Below are positions 37,355-45,365 of a DNA stretch of 64,000 bases, piece by piece. The stretch covers positions 744,001-808,000 of the forward strand of contig NC_014506.1 in the NCBI RefSeq assembly GCF_000147355.1, in the 5' to 3' direction. This DNA is from Sulfurimonas autotrophica DSM 16294 (GTDB lineage Bacteria > Campylobacterota > Campylobacteria > Campylobacterales > Sulfurimonadaceae). The notes below the pieces were generated by a model. That model had not been told where the DNA came from. It ran no database searches and was given only the letters and a program-made list of their open reading frames with translations. Both the position numbers and the translations under genes were made by a program. Every line of letters starts with the position of its first letter. Positions within the stretch are counted from its first letter, which is position 1.

Positions 37355-37430
37355 GTCTTGTTAGCTCAGCTGGTAGAGCACGTCACTTTTAATGATGTGG
37401 CCGATGGTTCGAATCCATCACAGGACACCA
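37355..37430 (+). tRNA. tRNA-Lys (TTT)
   Basis: 76 bases with encoded CCA. Acceptor GTCTTGT pairs with ACAGGAC (one T-G pair), D-stem GCTC, anticodon loop CTTTTAA, T-loop TTCGAAT. First gene of the array after a consensus promoter. Confidence 0.97.
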
Positions 37431-37447
37431 TTTTTACAGTTTTAAAT

Positions 37448-37523
37448 GGGCGCTTAGCTCAGTTGGTAGAGCGCTACCCTTACAAGGTAGATGTCACTGG
37501 TTCGAGTCCAGTAGTGCCCACCA
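37448..37523 (+). tRNA. tRNA-Val (TAC), copy 1
   Basis: 76 bases with encoded CCA. Acceptor GGGCGCT pairs with AGTGCCC, anticodon loop CTTACAA, T-loop TTCGAGT. Identical to copy 2 except for a compensatory acceptor pair. Confidence 0.97.
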
Positions 37524-37537
37524 TTTAAAATATATGC

Positions 37538-37614
37538 GCGGTGGTAGTTCAGTTGGTTAGAATACCTGCCTGTCACGCAGGGGGTCGTGGGTTCGAGCCC
37601 CATCCACCGCGCCA
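37538..37614 (+). tRNA. tRNA-Asp (GTC), copy 1
   Basis: 77 bases with encoded CCA. Acceptor GCGGTGG pairs with CCACCGC, anticodon loop CTGTCAC with GTC. The gene and several flanking bases are identical to copy 2. Confidence 0.97.
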
Positions 37615-37630
37615 CTTTTTACTTTTAAAT

Positions 37631-37706
37631 GGGCGTTTAGCTCAGTTGGTAGAGCGCTACCCTTACAAGGTAGATGTCACTGGTTCGAGTCCAGTAATGC
37701 CCACCA
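37631..37706 (+). tRNA. tRNA-Val (TAC), copy 2
   Basis: 76 bases with encoded CCA. Same as copy 1 except acceptor GGGCGTT/AATGCCC: C6-G67 has become T6-A67, keeping the pair. Flanking TTTTAAAT is also shared with copy 1, which indicates a local duplication. Confidence 0.97.
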
Positions 37707-37825
37707 TTTTGTTTATTTGCACTTTAGCTTTTGACTCACGTACTTTAGTACGCTTCGACAAAAACTTTAGCACAACTAAATCAAAATTATTTTGTTAACA
37801 ACCTTTTGTTTTAATGAAAGATAAT

Positions 37826-37901
37826 GACCCTTTCGTCTAGTGGCCAAGGACACTATCACTTCATGGTAGTAACAGAGGTTCAAATCCTTTAGGGGTCGCC
37901 A
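37826..37901 (+). tRNA. tRNA-Glu (TTC) with C33
   Basis: 76 bases with encoded CCA. Acceptor GACCCTT pairs with AGGGGTC (one T-G), D-stem GTCT/GGAC, anticodon stem CTATC/GGTAG, T-arm AGAGG-TTCAAAT-CCTTT. The anticodon loop is ACTTCAT: anticodon TTC is in register, but position 33 is C where nearly all tRNAs have U, and 32/38 are A/T. Arm lengths align base for base with standard tRNA-Glu, so this is not an alignment shift. All other arms are intact. Confidence 0.9.
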
Positions 37902-37926
37902 TTTTGACTGGTGTTTTTTTATATGC

Positions 37927-38003
37927 GCGGTGGTAGTTCAGTTGGTTAGAATACCTGCCTGTCACGCAGGGGGTCGTGGGTTCGAGCCCCATCCACCGCG
38001 CCA
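37927..38003 (+). tRNA. tRNA-Asp (GTC), copy 2
   Basis: 77 bases, identical to copy 1, and preceded by the same ATATGC. It is the last tRNA before the restriction-modification island, 90 bases from the hsdR start. Confidence 0.97.
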
Positions 38004-40431: not shown

Positions 40432-41484
40432 ATGGCAAAAGTTGAATTTTATGAAATAAATATAAGAGATACTAAAAATGGAATAGCTATTGATGAAAAC
40501 ATTGTAAATAAAATAAAAAATAGATTATTAGAACTACCAGAAAATGATTTACTTTGTAGTAACAAGACATGTCTAGCTATTTTATCTGAATTTAAAGAAA
40601 ATAAAAATTCTATAACATTTGACTTTTCAAAACTTACTAACGAAGTGATTAATAGCACGATTATTTCCAAACCTCTTGATAGTATCGATACTTTTGAAGA
40701 ATTTAACAATATGGAATCAGATAAAGCACTCCCAACAGTTGAAGAGATAGAATTTATTATTAGATTAACTTCCGAATATGAAAATGATGACTTAGTAAAC
40801 AAGCTGATGAAAAGTGAAATAGAGTATTTTACTATTTACAAAATCCTAAGAGATAATCGGAAATTAATTACACCTTATGAATTAGAATTGTTTTGTTCTA
40901 AAACGATACAACGTATGAAAAAAGAAAAAATATTTTTTAATATTACAAGATATAAACAAAGCTATATTCTCATGTTTCAAAAAGCTGTTCATGGATTTGA
41001 TGTTGAACATTTACTTGAATACTTAAATTCACATTTATTGGTAAATGAGAATTTGAGATTACATTTTAAAAAAATATATGATATGTCTTTTATGGATGCT
41101 TTACAAAATTCAGATTTAAAAAGTTTTAAATTCTCATATAGTTCTGAGTCTAAAAATAACTTAATTGAAGAAAACTTTGCAACACCATTATATTTTTTAA
41201 CAAAAATGTTAGGGACAAATATAACAATTAGTGTTAATAATGATAAAGACTTATTAGATAATAAAAAGTTACTAAGATTTTTTGAGATGGCTAATGAAGC
41301 GGGAATGTTGGACATGTGTAAAATCAAAAAATTTGGGACTTCTAAAGAAATAAAATCAACAGATAAAGGTCTAGAATTAAACTATACAACCAAACATAAA
41401 ATAGATAATATAGACCAAGCAAATGATTTTTTTGAAGAAGCCTTTGAGAATAAAGAAGATATATTAAGTGAGAGAATAGGATAA
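40432..41484 (+). CDS. Unrecognised soluble protein in RM island, 350 residues
   Basis: Not recognised. 350 residues, no signal peptide or membrane helix. The N-terminus (about 1-75) looks alpha/beta, starting MAKVEFYEINIRDTK. The middle is helical, and the C-terminal part (about 240-320) has strands around NITISVNNDKD and an acidic helical tail. Visibly AT-rich. It lies 25 bases after hsdR with GGAGAG before the ATG, and the small membrane protein follows three bases after its stop. The tight pair of a soluble protein and a multi-TM protein inside an RM locus suggests a sensor-effector defence module, by arrangement only. Confidence 0.75.
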   Translation: MAKVEFYEINIRDTKNGIAIDENIVNKIKNRLLELPENDLLCSNKTCLAILSEFKENKNSITFDFSKLTNEVINSTIISKPLDSIDTFEEFNNMESDKALPTVEEIEFIIRLTSEYENDDLVNKLMKSEIEYFTIYKILRDNRKLITPYELELFCSKTIQRMKKEKIFFNITRYKQSYILMFQKAVHGFDVEHLLEYLNSHLLVNENLRLHFKKIYDMSFMDALQNSDLKSFKFSYSSESKNNLIEENFATPLYFLTKMLGTNITISVNNDKDLLDNKKLLRFFEMANEAGMLDMCKIKKFGTSKEIKSTDKGLELNYTTKHKIDNIDQANDFFEEAFENKEDILSERIG

Positions 41485-41487
41485 GTT

Positions 41488-41865
41488 ATGGAAGAATTTA
41501 TTACAATTACTTTTACATTAATGGATAAAATGATATTTTCTCCACTTATCTTAATTGGTTTATTGATAACTACTTTATCATTAGTGATTAACCTAAAAGA
41601 TAATAATCATTCTAATATAAAAAAGTTCAAAAAACATAAAAATATCTATATATTTATAGATAGAATTTTTTATACAGCAAGTATTTTAGTGATTTTATTT
41701 TTATTGTCATTATTTACTGAATATATTCATGATAATGAATTTTATGTGAAAATTAGTGTGTCAATTTTATACATTACTGGGTTAGTATATGTAGCATATA
41801 GTCTATTTGTAATAGTTTATATTTTACAAGAAATAGCGAAAACATCTTTAAAAAATAATACATAA
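41488..41865 (+). CDS. Small three-helix membrane protein in RM island
   Basis: 125 residues with three hydrophobic segments (about 14-35, 54-75, 88-114) and basic stretches between the first two (KKFKKHKN). No known domain is recognised. It begins three bases after the stop of the 350-residue gene, so the two are almost certainly co-translated. In several abortive-infection systems the small membrane partner is the killing effector; that is analogy, not evidence. Confidence 0.75.
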   Translation: MEEFITITFTLMDKMIFSPLILIGLLITTLSLVINLKDNNHSNIKKFKKHKNIYIFIDRIFYTASILVILFLLSLFTEYIHDNEFYVKISVSILYITGLVYVAYSLFVIVYILQEIAKTSLKNNT

Positions 41866-41882: not shown

Positions 41883-41987
41883 TTGGAAAGTAAAATAAAA
41901 AAGATAATGAATATGCTAAAACAAAGCGATAGTATTGGTGTTGTAATAATATATAAAAGACAAAGGATAAAAAATACATGTCAATGA
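41883..41987 (+). pseudogene. Remnant of an hsdM 5' end
   Basis: The bases TTGGAAAGTAAAATAAA (41883-41899) are identical to the first 17 bases of hsdM at 43198. The frame reads MESKIKKIMNMLKQSDSIG and on to a TGA at 41985, aligning without gaps to MESKINRITDILRRDDGIS of HsdM (11 identities in 29). It stops 35 codons in and overlaps the start of the fic gene. This looks like a truncated, decayed copy of the hsdM start, left when the fic gene and its downstream region came in. Confidence 0.65.
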
Positions 41988-43051
41988 AATCATATAAACT
42001 CCAAACTCTTCCTTTGCCTATAGATATAGAAACCCCAAAAGTCCTAAAAAAAGCAATTTCTGCCAATCGTGCTTTGGCAAAACTTAATGGGGTGGCTCAA
42101 ATCATCCCAAACTCTCAAATCCTCATCAACTCTTTAGTACTCAGAGAAGCAAAAGATAGTTCGGAAATAGAAAACATCATCACTACACATGATGAGCTTT
42201 TTCGTGCAGGGTTGGATATAAACTCTGTTACAAATGAAACTAAAGAAGTGGAACATTATCGACAGGCTTTACTTAAAGGGTATGCATTGGTTCAAGAGCA
42301 TAAGCTTTTACTTAAAAGAGACATCATAGCTATTCAGCAAGAACTAGAACAAAATGATGCAGGGGTAAGACGCCAAGCCGGAACGGTGTTGCGTAATATG
42401 GCTACGGGTGACGTAGTATTTGAACCGCCACAGGAGTATGCTGTTATAGAAAAATTACTAGACAATCTCGAAAATTACATAAACGAACCAAATGAAATTG
42501 ACCCACTTGTCAATATGGCGATTATTCATTATCAGTTTGAATCTATTCACCCATTTTATGATGGTAATGGTAGAATTGGCAGAATTATAAATATTTTGTA
42601 TCTTGTGTTAAAAGATTTACTTGAATTGCCTATTTTATATCTGAGTTCTTACATTATTCAAAACAAGGCAGATTACTACAGACTACTGCAAGAGGTACGA
42701 ACAAAAGAAAATTGGGAAGAGTGGATTCTCTACATACTTAATGGAGTGGAACAGACTTCATTGGATACTATTGAACTCATCAATAATATTTATGAACTAA
42801 TGAATAAAACAAAAAGTACGATAAAAGAGAAGTTGCCAAAAATATATAGTAAAGATTTAGTGGAGATACTTTTTGTACATCCTTATACAAAGATAGAATT
42901 TTTAGTCGATGGCTTGGGGATTACTCGAAAAACTGCATCGAAATATCTCAATGAATTAGAGCAAATCGGTATACTGAAAAATATACAGATAAAAAATAGT
43001 AAATTTTTTATCAATGAAGAACTTTTTGATATGTTGAAAAAAGGTATATAA
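41978..43051 (+). CDS. Fic-domain protein with inhibitory helix and C-terminal winged helix
   Basis: 357 residues. Fic_N region about 1-60, with the inhibitory motif SSEIEN ([S/T]xxxE[N/G]) near residues 57-62; Fic core with HPFYDGNGRIGR (about 187-198), matching HPFxxGNGRxxR; C-terminal winged-helix region (about 295-357, IEFLVDGLGITRKTASKYLNELE). Fic proteins usually AMP-ylate targets; the N-terminal inhibitory helix should hold it off. The winged helix suggests DNA binding, perhaps to the repeats just downstream. AAAGGA precedes the ATG. It separates the RM subunit genes. Confidence 0.9.
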   Translation: MSMKSYKLQTLPLPIDIETPKVLKKAISANRALAKLNGVAQIIPNSQILINSLVLREAKDSSEIENIITTHDELFRAGLDINSVTNETKEVEHYRQALLKGYALVQEHKLLLKRDIIAIQQELEQNDAGVRRQAGTVLRNMATGDVVFEPPQEYAVIEKLLDNLENYINEPNEIDPLVNMAIIHYQFESIHPFYDGNGRIGRIINILYLVLKDLLELPILYLSSYIIQNKADYYRLLQEVRTKENWEEWILYILNGVEQTSLDTIELINNIYELMNKTKSTIKEKLPKIYSKDLVEILFVHPYTKIEFLVDGLGITRKTASKYLNELEQIGILKNIQIKNSKFFINEELFDMLKKGI

Positions 43052-43086
43052 TTCAACAATTAAAATTTATATGTAAAAAAAATCAT

Positions 43087-43185
43087 AAAATTTACACATA
43101 GATATAAAGCTATGAGTAAAAAAGTCAATAATTTACCCATAGATTGTGAACTATGTATAAAAAACAGTAAAATTTACCCATAGAT
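43087..43185 (+). repeat. 41-bp tandem repeats with dyads upstream of hsdM
   Basis: Units start at 43087, 43127 and 43168 (period 40-41), sharing AATTTACCCATAGAT with minor changes. Each complete unit is a dyad: TTTACACATAG (43091-43101) with CTATGAGTAAA (43110-43120), and TTTACCCATAG (43132-43142) with CTATGTATAAA (43151-43161), both with 8-base spacers. The third is a left half-site (43173-43183). A weak further match is at 43061-43077. The spacing, close to four helical turns, suggests cooperative repressor sites. Confidence 0.75.
43156..43161 (+). promoter_or_regulatory. Possible -10 element of hsdM inside the second dyad
   Basis: TATAAA within CTATGTATAAAAAAC. A protein bound to the dyad would cover this element, so repression of hsdM (and genes downstream) is likely. 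AAAAGG (43186-43191) is the ribosome-binding site for the TTG start at 43198. Confidence 0.4.
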
Positions 43186-43197
43186 AAAAGGCAAAAC

Positions 43198-44685
43198 TTG
43201 GAAAGTAAAATAAATAGAATAACAGATATATTGAGACGGGATGATGGGATTAGTGGGGCTATGATGTACACTGAACAAATTTCCTGGGTGCTTTTTTTAA
43301 AATTTTTGAATGATTTGGAAGACTCTAAGGCTGATGAAGCACTTTTAAACGGACAGGAGTACACTTACATACTTGATGACAATTACAAGTGGAGTTCTTG
43401 GGCTTGTCCTAAAGATGCAAAGGGCAAACTTGACCTCATAAACGCCAAGAGTGGTGAAGACCTTTTGGAGTTTGTGAACAAGGAGTTGTTTCCTTATCTC
43501 AAAGGTTTTAAGTCACTCACGCAAGACCCTAAATCCATTAAGTACAAAATAGGTGCTATCTTTGAATACCTAGATAACCGCATTGCCAATGGGCATACGC
43601 TGCGTGAGGTGTTGGACATCATAGATGAGCTGGACTTTCACAATCAGGCTGACTTGTTTCAACTCTCACTCATTTATGAAAAACTGCTTAAAGATATGGG
43701 AAGTGACGGCGGAAACAGCGGGGAGTTTTATACGCCCCGTCCGCTTATAAAAGTCATAGCCGATGTTGTAAACCCTGTCATAGGAGAAACGGTATATGAT
43801 CCGGCAGCAGGAAGCTGCGGCTTTCTCATAGAAGCATATAATCACATCAGGTACATAAACGCTGAGGAAAATAAGCAAAGAGAACTCTCAACCGAGCAGT
43901 TGAAGTTTTTAAATGAAGATACATTTTTCGGCAATGAAAAGACACCGCTCTCTTATGTGATGGGTGTGATGAATATGATACTTCACGGCATAGAGTCTCC
44001 AAACATTGCTAAAACAAATACACTTACAAAAGACATACGAGGCTTGGAAGAAAAAGAGAGATTTGACTGCATCTTGGCAAATCCTCCGTTTGGCGGTAAA
44101 GAAAATGACTCCATTCAGCAAAATTTTCCTATAAAATCAAATGCGACGGAGTTACTATTTTTACAGCACATGATGAACTATTTAAAACTCAATGGCAAAT
44201 GCGGCGTGGTTATTCCTGAAGGCGTGTTATTTCAAACAAATAAAGCATTCCAGGCAGTAAAACAGGAGCTTTTGGAGCGTTTCAACGTGCATACGATTCT
44301 TTCACTGCCTGCAGGAATATTTTTGCCTTACAGCGGCGTCAAAACAAATGTCATCTTTTTTGACAGAGCGGGTGCAACTTCTGAGATATTTTACTATGAG
44401 GTCAATCCTCCTTACAAGCTCACAAAAAACAAGCCTATAAAGTATGAACACTTCAAAGAGTTTCTTGATACTTGGCAAGAGAGAACACTTACGGAAAATT
44501 CGTGGGTAGTACATGTAAATAATATAAAAGATTATGATATAAGTGCTAAAAACCCAAATAAAAATGAAGTTATAGAGCATAAATCACCATTAGAATTAGT
44601 AGAAAACATTAAAACCAATAATAAAGAAATAAATGATTTGATGGATGAAATTGAAGCTGTTTTGGTTGGGAAAGATATTGAATAA
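43198..44685 (+). CDS. hsdM: Type I DNA methyltransferase M subunit
   Basis: 495 residues with a TTG start, AAAAGG 6 bases upstream. N-terminal helical domain (about 1-130), then the N6-adenine methylase core: motif I YDPAAGSCGFLIEA, motif IV ANPPFGG, and GKCGVVIPEGVLF. Methylates adenine in the site chosen by HsdS. Its upstream region has the 41-bp dyad repeats, and a truncated copy of its first codons lies before the fic gene. Confidence 0.95.
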   Translation: MESKINRITDILRRDDGISGAMMYTEQISWVLFLKFLNDLEDSKADEALLNGQEYTYILDDNYKWSSWACPKDAKGKLDLINAKSGEDLLEFVNKELFPYLKGFKSLTQDPKSIKYKIGAIFEYLDNRIANGHTLREVLDIIDELDFHNQADLFQLSLIYEKLLKDMGSDGGNSGEFYTPRPLIKVIADVVNPVIGETVYDPAAGSCGFLIEAYNHIRYINAEENKQRELSTEQLKFLNEDTFFGNEKTPLSYVMGVMNMILHGIESPNIAKTNTLTKDIRGLEEKERFDCILANPPFGGKENDSIQQNFPIKSNATELLFLQHMMNYLKLNGKCGVVIPEGVLFQTNKAFQAVKQELLERFNVHTILSLPAGIFLPYSGVKTNVIFFDRAGATSEIFYYEVNPPYKLTKNKPIKYEHFKEFLDTWQERTLTENSWVVHVNNIKDYDISAKNPNKNEVIEHKSPLELVENIKTNNKEINDLMDEIEAVLVGKDIE

Positions 44686-44782
44686 GTTCAGTACCCTTGG
44701 CTACACCTCAAAGGATGCAGGCTTACAAGGGAATTTCAATGAAGATTATAACATAATTTTAGGAAAGAATGCAAATGGATGA
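44678..44782 (+). CDS. Possible 34-residue ORF between hsdM and the HEPN gene
   Basis: In the +1 frame relative to hsdM, a TTG at 44678 (GGGAAAGATA before it) opens a frame beginning MNKFSTLGYTSKDAGLQG and ending GKNANG at TGA 44782. Its composition is protein-like but no family is recognised. It overlaps the end of hsdM and the start of the next gene. It may be a short gene, the tail of a lost gene, or chance. Confidence 0.25.
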   Translation: MNKFSTLGYTSKDAGLQGNFNEDYNIILGKNANG

Positions 44783-45365
44783 GATGATAATTGAAAAATA
44801 TATTAGTTCAGCACGATTGAGTAAATATAGTTCGTTGGATGAGTATAAAAAAAATATTTATTTATCAAATAGTTTTTATATACCTTTATCAATCTTAGAA
44901 GTTTCATTACGAAATGCAATAAATAGTCAATTTATAGTTTTTTATGGACAAAACTGGATACTCAACGAAGCACAATTTTTGCAAAGAGATGCATTAGAAA
45001 AAATAGCTCAGGCGAAGATGAAGTTACAATCTAGAAATGAAACTTTAACACATGCAAAGCTTACTGCAGAACTCACCTTTGGTTTTTGGACATCACTCTT
45101 TCAGAAGCCTTATGATAAAACAATGCGTTTACAAACATTGAGGGGGATTTTCTCAAATTTACCAAGAACAGAAGCTAAACCAATAGATAGAAAAACTATA
45201 TCGGCTAAATTAAATCATATAAGAAAATTTAGAAATCGTATTTTTCATTTTGAAAAAATTGTAAATAAAGAAGAATTTAATAATATTGAACACGATATTG
45301 ATGAGATACTGGGATTTTTACATGCCGATATAGTAAAATTTTCAAGGGAAATGACACATGAATGA
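44769..45365 (+). CDS. Abi_2-like HEPN-type protein
   Basis: 198 residues from ATG 44769 (AGGAA four bases upstream; ATG 44775 is nearly as good). The pattern SNSFYIPLSILEVSLRNAI, FGFWTSLFQKPYD and LNHIRKFRNRIFHFEKI matches the Abi_2/AbiD-F-like family. RNRIFH (R-x4-H) is the HEPN ribonuclease motif. Such proteins can cut RNA and abort phage infection. Its last eight bases overlap hsdS, so it is translated with the specificity subunit. Why it lies between hsdM and hsdS is unknown. Confidence 0.8.
   Translation: MQMDEMIIEKYISSARLSKYSSLDEYKKNIYLSNSFYIPLSILEVSLRNAINSQFIVFYGQNWILNEAQFLQRDALEKIAQAKMKLQSRNETLTHAKLTAELTFGFWTSLFQKPYDKTMRLQTLRGIFSNLPRTEAKPIDRKTISAKLNHIRKFRNRIFHFEKIVNKEEFNNIEHDIDEILGFLHADIVKFSREMTHE

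Follow-up and report, generated by a model that had tools for sequence, protein, structure and literature searches.

Fic proteins that end in a helix-turn-helix (HTH) domain have been described in several bacteria. In Yersinia pseudotuberculosis, CccR, which combines a Fic domain with a C-terminal HTH, is described as repressing its own promoter through inverted half-sites (PMC9755527). CbFic2 of Coxiella burnetii is a class II Fic with a C-terminal winged HTH (wHTH), and the account given of it reports that binding of double-stranded DNA stimulates its (de)AMPylation activity and its dimerization (PMC10628234). The SoFic family includes SO_4266 of Shewanella (PDB 3eqx, 3zcn, and 3zec) and the anti-phage Sofic (PMC12249575).

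The window analyzed here is a stretch of 64,000 nt from Sulfurimonas autotrophica DSM 16294 (NC_014506.1, positions 744,001 to 808,000). Between the stop of a fic gene (43051) and the TTG start of hsdM (43198) it carries an array of dyads (Table 1), which is likely to be a row of tandem binding sites for the C-terminal winged helix of Fic, the product of the gene immediately before it, with a role in regulation. The first-pass annotation had described two and a half dyad units here with a 41-bp period. A repeat search returned three 41-nt copies (43070-43110, 43111-43151, and 43152-43192; spacing 41 and 41), the second and third being 66% and 83% identical to the first. Both dyads were recovered, TTTACACATAG-N8-CTATGAGTAAA (43091-43120) and TTTACCCATAG-N8-CTATGTATAAA (43132-43161), as was the third left half-site in the hsdM leader (43173-43183), which ends 14 nt before the TTG. 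The TATAAA said to overlap the second dyad (43156-43161) does lie within its right arm, and a second TATAAA (43103-43108) sits inside the loop of dyad 1. What the count of two and a half units missed is a degenerate sixth half-site, ATATGTAAAAA; when scored, the array (locus L033) has six half-sites in alternating orientation. Chance is ruled out as the origin of the repeats: with up to three mismatches the dyad pattern gave four strand matches in the window, all in the array, against 0.05 expected, and none of 100 shuffles reached four; a somewhat looser pattern, run over the 2.15-Mb genome with at most two mismatches, matched at the array and nowhere else, with no control matches.

Table 1. 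Features of the fic–hsdM region, with positions in the window.
Feature	Positions	Strand	Basis or remark
Possible hsdM 5'-end relic upstream of fic, 25 nt, 22 identical	41883..41907	+	Score 35 vs. shuffle maximum 31 (300 shuffles); modest
fic, SoFic-type, 357 aa, class II, C-terminal wHTH; proposed array-binding protein	41978..43051	+	Pfam, PADLOC, structure
Recognition helix start and body, codons 316-329 (T316-R317-K318, then TASKYLNELEQ)	42923..42964	+	Model helix 317-329
Half-site 0, degenerate, ATATGTAAAAA	about 43069..43079	+	Six-half-site scoring of L033; position read from sequence
Half-site 1, TTTACACATAG	43091..43101	-	Repeat and dyad analysis
Half-site 2, CTATGAGTAAA	43110..43120	+	With half-site 1 forms dyad 1, CAT-N12-ATG
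Half-site 3, TTTACCCATAG	43132..43142	-	Repeat and dyad analysis
Half-site 4, CTATGTATAAA	43151..43161	+	Overlaps TATAAA 43156-43161; with half-site 3 forms dyad 2
Possible -10 of hsdM promoter, TAAAAT, with TTGTGA at 43144; weak	43168..43173	+	Sigma-70 scan
Half-site 5, TTTACCCATAG	43173..43183	-	hsdM leader, beside AAAAGG (43186-43191)
hsdM, TTG start, gene after the array	43198..44685	+	Pfam N6_Mtase 1.2e-62; PADLOC MTase_I

The Fic protein of the window contains, in order, the Pfam domains Fic_N (4e-27), Fic (1.7e-17), and SoFic-like_C (4.5e-28), and PADLOC classes it as SoFic (4.8e-118). In structure comparison it matches SoFic structures with a Z of 43.9, and the remaining, non-Fic matches that align to its C-terminal part are other winged helices. 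The C-terminal winged helix claimed for it earlier is borne out by the SoFic-like_C domain and by the AlphaFold model (mean pLDDT 87.3), in which a recognition helix (317-329) precedes two wing strands (334-338 and 341-345). The inhibitory motif of Fic proteins has the form [ST]xxxE[GN]. In the window protein both the inhibitory motif (SSEIEN) and the catalytic motif (HPFYDGNGRIGR) are intact in translation, and the catalytic residues are invariant in the alignment, with the exception of Y194. The published motifs TSAIEG and SARIEG (PMC10628234, PMC9755527) agree with the inhibitory form, and the catalytic form is given as HPFx(D/E)GN(G/K)R (PMC2686095). Domain order and intact motifs are thus those of a SoFic-type protein, for which AMPylation activity is predicted.

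The first-pass annotation expected the dyad to recur at homologous fic–hsdM junctions, and it does: three orthologous junctions (L004, L005, and L008; HsdM about 90% identical) all carry arrays. The half-site TTTACNCATAG is shared by the window and L004, while TTAACATAG is found in L005 and L008 (in L008, in every half-site but the last). A Fic search of 298 related genomes gave matches in 180, and reading of the flanks then revealed that arrays adjoin many fic genes that encode a C-terminal wHTH. The nearest named loci, among the best 80 of 586 relatives, are on Sulfurimonas and related Campylobacterota contigs. The side on which the array lies depends on the clade: in the clade of the window it is downstream of fic, in the sister clade it is upstream and covers the region of the fic promoter, and in other phyla it is on either side. 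The gene after the array also varies, being hsdM, hsdR, a methyltransferase gene, a cobQ-like, xseA-like, or flagellin-like gene (the non-hsd names come from reading of the translations), or none nearby.

Counting used a non-redundant set of 154 Fic loci (set 1) that came from viral contigs as well as from several phyla, with the best 15 of 63 viral loci (L203-L217) and the best 80 of 586 relatives among its sources; six of 165 loci were dropped because the match stopped before residue 325 or there was no hit, and removal of five duplicates took 159 to 154. Dyads were counted in 200-nt flanks as inverted repeats with arms of 9, at most one mismatch, a loop of 4-16, and at least two G/C; this count was substituted for an earlier detector (8-mers with one mismatch, 60 shuffles per region) that was too weak in AT-rich flanks. 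Downstream of fic there were 140 dyads against 32.0 expected from shuffles (152 loci with sequence), and upstream 126 against 30.3 (135 loci), compared with 46 against 35.6, 36 against 27.1, and 43 against 33.3 in the in-gene and far-flank controls. Among close Fic relatives (at least 65% identity), 34 of 35 loci had downstream dyads (47 vs. 6.3), whatever gene came next, and the upstream excess was small (12 vs. 6.2; 10 of 30 loci). Campylobacterota loci at a greater distance (below 65%) had their excess mainly in the upstream flank, with 32 vs. 6.0 there (20 of 23 loci) and 14 vs. 6.8 in the downstream flank (12 of 30 loci). The group of other phyla, which also includes two Campylobacterota loci (L159 and L202), had 65 vs. 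14.1 upstream (43 of 66 loci) and 59 vs. 14.7 downstream (37 of 67 loci).

In the reverse direction, 135 genomes of the genus were searched with the divergent-pair pattern of the GGG class, which matched 12 places, in 12 of the genomes, with one control match. Eight of these arrays lie beside fic sequence (two with a broken fic, one at a contig edge), and nine adjoin fic sequence or a fic relic. The relic is a fic deletion in L366 (902-1465), where a RhuM-type gene is fused in frame to the last 23 Fic residues and is followed by the array. At the other three (L367, L369, and L375), a reading of 1.5 kb to either side showed no recognizable fic. The L367 array directly precedes an hsdM (88% identical) without an adjoining fic; the same genome encodes a TRK Fic elsewhere (L057), so binding of this array in trans is possible. 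The orphan arrays L369 and L375 are possible regulon targets or relics.

The geometry of the arrays is shared across phyla. Half-sites of the same orientation recur most often at 41 bp (108 cases), followed by 40 (46) and 42 (23), and all six half-site classes examined have their spacing peak at 40, 41, or 42. In the flanks of set 1, irrespective of class, CAT-N12-ATG occurs 105 times, against 46 and 16 at the adjacent spacings, and ATG-N23-CAT 120 times, against 20 and 30. The in-gene control contains 33 and 5 of these, respectively, and peaks elsewhere (up to 99 at N28), a product of conserved coding sequence. In a held-out set of loci, CAT-N-ATG is equally frequent at N11 and N12 (18 each), and ATG-N-CAT occurs 26 times at N23, with N13 also at 22. 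From the two spacings, neighboring half-sites are about two helical turns apart, and this, with the 41-bp unit, supports the earlier description of a cooperative-operator pattern, with dimer sites on one face of the DNA. DNA rises by about 3.4 Å per bp. The DNA-binding helices of the CccR dimer lie 70.2 Å apart (PMC9755527), or about 21 bp, from which we infer by analogy that one Fic dimer could span two neighboring half-sites. The longest arrays scored include those of L180, an Akkermansia contig with 12 half-sites downstream and four upstream of fic, and of L203, an IMG/VR viral contig with 11 downstream.

The sequence of the half-sites follows the recognition helix of the adjoining Fic. R317 is invariant in both alignments made; it is flanked by residues 316 and 318, and the window Fic has T-R-K at 316-318 together with the half-site ATGGGTA. 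A locus of set 1 was labeled when at least one listed word was present at least twice (89 of 154 loci). In the labeled loci, with a word list taken from set 1 itself and with counts that are not independent because many loci are related, the associations were as follows: [ST]RQ with ATGTTAA (word GTTAA), 17 of 17; [ST]RK with ATGGGTA (GGGTA), 21 of 25; SRP with ATGTAAAG (GTAAAG), 9 of 10; SRL with ATGTATAG (GTATAG), 6 of 9; HRN with ATGCACA (GCACA), 3 of 3; [KQ]RQ with ATGTCGA (GTCGA), 3 of 3; HRE with the same ATGTCGA (GTCGA), 3 of 4; and ERK/QRK with GTACC, 3 of 3. The sole labeled HRD locus was off-code (0 of 1 with ATGTCGA), and SRI/TRI was mixed (10 labeled loci: GTATAG in four, GTAAAG in two, other words in four). 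The 65 loci that had no listed word twice include 18 [ST]RK and two [ST]RQ. In the downstream flanks of L035, L088, L095, L126, and L155, the arrays are tandem stacks of half-sites from different classes, as if earlier changes in Fic specificity had been recorded there.

Two further tests addressed this association. In a word-free comparison of locus pairs below 60% identity in the Fic core, same-code pairs shared a repeated 7-mer more often, with a difference of 0.225 against a maximum of 0.073 in 2000 permutations. Taken singly, column 318 (0.122) ranked first and column 316 second among the wHTH columns tested; the Fic-core columns 188 and 90 came close to 318 (0.117 and 0.114), but both are nearly invariant and their scores are taken as the effect of a few outlying proteins. 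The second test applied rules frozen from set 1, with two words permitted for SRI/TRI, to 61 new loci in genomes that belong to three other classes (86 before removal of seven without a C-terminus, 16 below 38% identity, one seen before, and one duplicate). The predicted word was uniquely the commonest in 31 of the 50 loci that had a rule, compared with 8.7 on average and never more than 17 in 2000 permutations of the helices, and its mean count per locus was 1.64, compared with 0.049 for other words, numbers that overstate independence since the set includes related loci (e.g., an SRKTAAGYL group). The remainder of the 50 comprised three ties, 13 loci without a listed word (two of which, TAK and TPK, have no arginine and were wrongly placed under a rule), and three contrary to the rule; a further 11 loci fell outside any rule. 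On this sequence evidence, the bases after ATG appear to be set by residues 316 and 318, and these two residues would predict much of the site.

Since the half-site words track the recognition helix and the rule holds on held-out loci, the Fic wHTH very probably binds the array. The earlier suggestion that Fic is the DNA-binding partner is thereby strongly supported, as it also is by the nine of 12 arrays in the genus that adjoin fic or its relic. A mechanism can be proposed in which half-sites of the form ATG-NNNN alternate as CAT-N12-ATG and then ATG-N23-CAT, about two helical turns apart. Each Fic dimer would hold two neighboring half-sites, and dimers placed next to one another every 41 bp would occupy the array cooperatively. 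Residues 316 and 318, on either side of the conserved R317, would choose the bases after ATG, and T-R-K would read ATGGGTA in the window. Fic and array would move as one module, with fic in clade 1 often the last gene of a defense operon and the array after it. In the window, Fic bound to the array, with its TATAAA-like boxes before hsdM, would most likely limit transcription of hsdM-abi-hsdS. Where the sites lie over the fic promoter, in the sister clade and in some of the other phyla, bound Fic should repress fic, as CccR does its own gene.

The idea that the array ties hsdM expression to Fic is only partly supported. For the window, we lean slightly toward an effect of Fic on hsdM transcription and, given such an effect, repression is rather more probable than activation. 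The sigma-70 scan of the array region gave two promoter-like matches against 2.1 expected from shuffles, no excess over chance. Against such a tie, the array goes with fic and not with hsdM, and in one genome (L367) it precedes hsdM without an adjoining fic. Nineteen clade-1 neighborhoods have a next gene, and in seven of them it is convergent or lies at a distance of more than 350 nt, yet the array is present; in two of the seven (L104 and L109) the array is followed by a stretch that weakly resembles an hsdM start (scores 20 and 27). An hsdM-specific element was rejected on these seven loci and on the varied or absent next genes. The seven arrays suggest an extra or different role, for example, setting of activity as in CbFic2.

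Among the alternatives, the one that survives best, possible though clearly less probable than regulation from tandem sites, is that the array serves Fic chiefly as a platform, allosteric or tethering, and does not act as a promoter operator. By binding this DNA, Fic would have its oligomeric state and AMPylation set, the DNA acting like an antitoxin, and loss or displacement of the array DNA during phage attack would free the enzyme. This would account for arrays kept downstream of fic whatever comes next, convergent or distant genes included (the seven of 19), and it fits both the membership of the window Fic in the SoFic anti-phage family by PADLOC and the behavior described for CbFic2, a class II Fic with a wHTH that is stimulated by double-stranded DNA and dimerizes on it (PMC10628234). 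The genes upstream of fic can be read in the same way. Neighborhoods were covered for 20 loci (L103-L122), and ten proteins whose genes precede fic, from eight of these loci, were scanned with Pfam, which identified HepT with nucleotidyltransferase, RhuM, OLD-like AAA/TOPRIM, YobI-ATPase, ResIII helicase, SMODS synthase with patatin, DNA methylase, and SIR2; of these, the HepT–nucleotidyltransferase, SIR2, SMODS–patatin, YobI-ATPase, and DNA methylase genes favor the platform. Nineteen clade-1 neighborhoods have a gene upstream of fic; in 14 of them that gene and fic share a strand, and 13 of the 14 pairs overlap or are at most 11 nt apart. Tight placement behind co-strand defense genes, together with the PADLOC class, makes the Fic module most likely a regulator-effector added to defense operons. 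What speaks against a platform is that the sister clade, and 43 of 66 loci in the other-phyla group, have a dyad upstream of fic, where the site of an autorepressor usually lies. More speculatively still, Fic and its downstream array could be a portable switch at the 3' end of many defense operons, in which the array keeps the enzyme at the locus that encodes it and sets its AMPylation state, phage damage to the array DNA or competition for it frees active toxin, and the helix–site code diversifies, preventing cross-talk between neighboring modules.

Several features of the window and of related loci concern the history of the region. In addition to the relic in Table 1, L035 has a clearer hsdM 5' end upstream of fic (about 80 nt, score 50); such relics are perhaps scars of a fic–array–hsdM block entering a resident hsdM. 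In the window, six tRNA genes (37355-38003) directly before hsdR are a possible integration site of the restriction–modification (R-M) island, two genes in a low G+C stretch between hsdR and fic (40432-41865) had no Pfam match above cut-off and no PADLOC match, and a 198-aa gene between hsdM and hsdS (44769-45365), with weak Abi_2 and PD-T4-5 matches, is perhaps a further defense gene inside the R-M operon.

It is quite unlikely that the repeats are a mobile-element scar or recombination site, a by-product of exchange of the fic cassette. The stacked arrays of different classes (L035, L088, L095, and L126), the hsdM-like relics, and the RhuM–fic fusion relic show that exchange has taken place around the array, but a recombination site is not expected to track residues 316 and 318 across phyla or to cover fic promoters.

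Less probable again is an RNA element, with the dyads of the fic 3' UTR or hsdM leader acting as a series of hairpins, a structure that the first-pass annotation had also raised. The array RNA does fold better than its shuffles (z -2.94), as any inverted repeat would. The within-array comparison of half-sites is a fairer test: of 11 positions, convergent (hairpin) partners agree at 8.48, more than third neighbors (7.93) but less than divergent neighbors (8.91) or copies 41 bp apart (9.03). When partners were shuffled across loci, both pair types showed a small excess (8.19 vs. 7.94 and 8.62 vs. 8.13; 0 of 2000 shuffles reached either), which arises because arrays differ between loci. Hairpin pairs are therefore no more alike than other close pairs, and hairpin covariation is not what keeps the half-sites alike; in addition, arm mismatches are uncompensated (A.A in dyad 1 of the window, G.G in L034) and the half-site code tracks a DNA-reading helix. 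RNA hairpins were rejected as the main function on the agreement and fold tests. It is just as improbable that another regulator, or HsdM/HsdS, binds the array with Fic a bystander: the array does precede hsdM in the window and some related genomes, and three arrays of the genus have no adjoining fic, one of them before hsdM, but the genes downstream of arrays are many or none nearby, L078 has hsdM directly after fic and its array upstream of fic, and the half-site covaries with the Fic recognition helix.

Comparison with known systems places the window protein closest to SoFic, of the same family by Pfam, PADLOC, and structure. Controller (C) proteins of R-M systems are small, XRE-type, HTH-only regulators, mostly of type II systems. 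They resemble the present case in that a DNA-binding regulator is encoded within an R-M locus, with an operator before an R-M gene, but here the protein is a 357-aa Fic enzyme with a wHTH that is found beside many defense genes. In type III toxin–antitoxin systems, tandem repeats act as RNA and lie upstream of an RNase-type toxin gene, whereas the present repeats are downstream of a Fic gene and have no hairpin-specific covariation. In the available portions of two reports on SoFic, no DNA site is mentioned (PMC12249575, PMC3667792); the SoFic-named PDB entries 9tch, 9tc4, 9tcl, and 9tb0, which might include DNA, were absent from the structure comparison matches (library to April 2026), so a DNA complex may already have been described. 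CbFic2 is more distant from the window Fic (Z 23.9, rmsd 9.5, against Z 43.9 for SoFic), and it is described as tested with random DNA, its authors leaving a specific site open (PMC10628234).

CccR is similar in its Fic domain and C-terminal HTH and, by description only, in the inward CAT...ATG half-sites AGATAATCAT-N26-ATGATAATCT of its own promoter; it differs in having one pair with a 26-bp spacer, in place of a 41-bp array with CAT-N12-ATG, and in a site upstream of its own gene, and the available account describes no specificity code (PMC9755527). In the window, no dyad was found within 200 nt upstream of fic (L033), the array being downstream; inverted half-sites in the gene's own promoter are found in the sister clade (e.g., L057, L058, L062, L066-L069, and L071). 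A search of titles and abstracts in the open-licence PMC literature, with preprints outside its scope, returned no Fic-wHTH half-site arrays or specificity code.

For several SoFic-type classes, the likely DNA site can now be read from the genome, a question that the authors of CbFic2 left open for the HTH of Fic (PMC10628234). As two residues predict much of the site, binding, specificity swaps, and the effect of DNA on AMPylation become directly testable in a widespread AMPylating anti-phage protein that is linked to adjoining R-M, SMODS/patatin, and SIR2 genes. Helix and docking sites that change together offer a readable code for how such Fic enzymes may recognize DNA. The Fic-HTH autoregulator is a known kind, represented by CccR; what looks new within the literature searched is the code, the 41-bp geometry that the arrays have in common, and their placement at the 3' end of defense operons.
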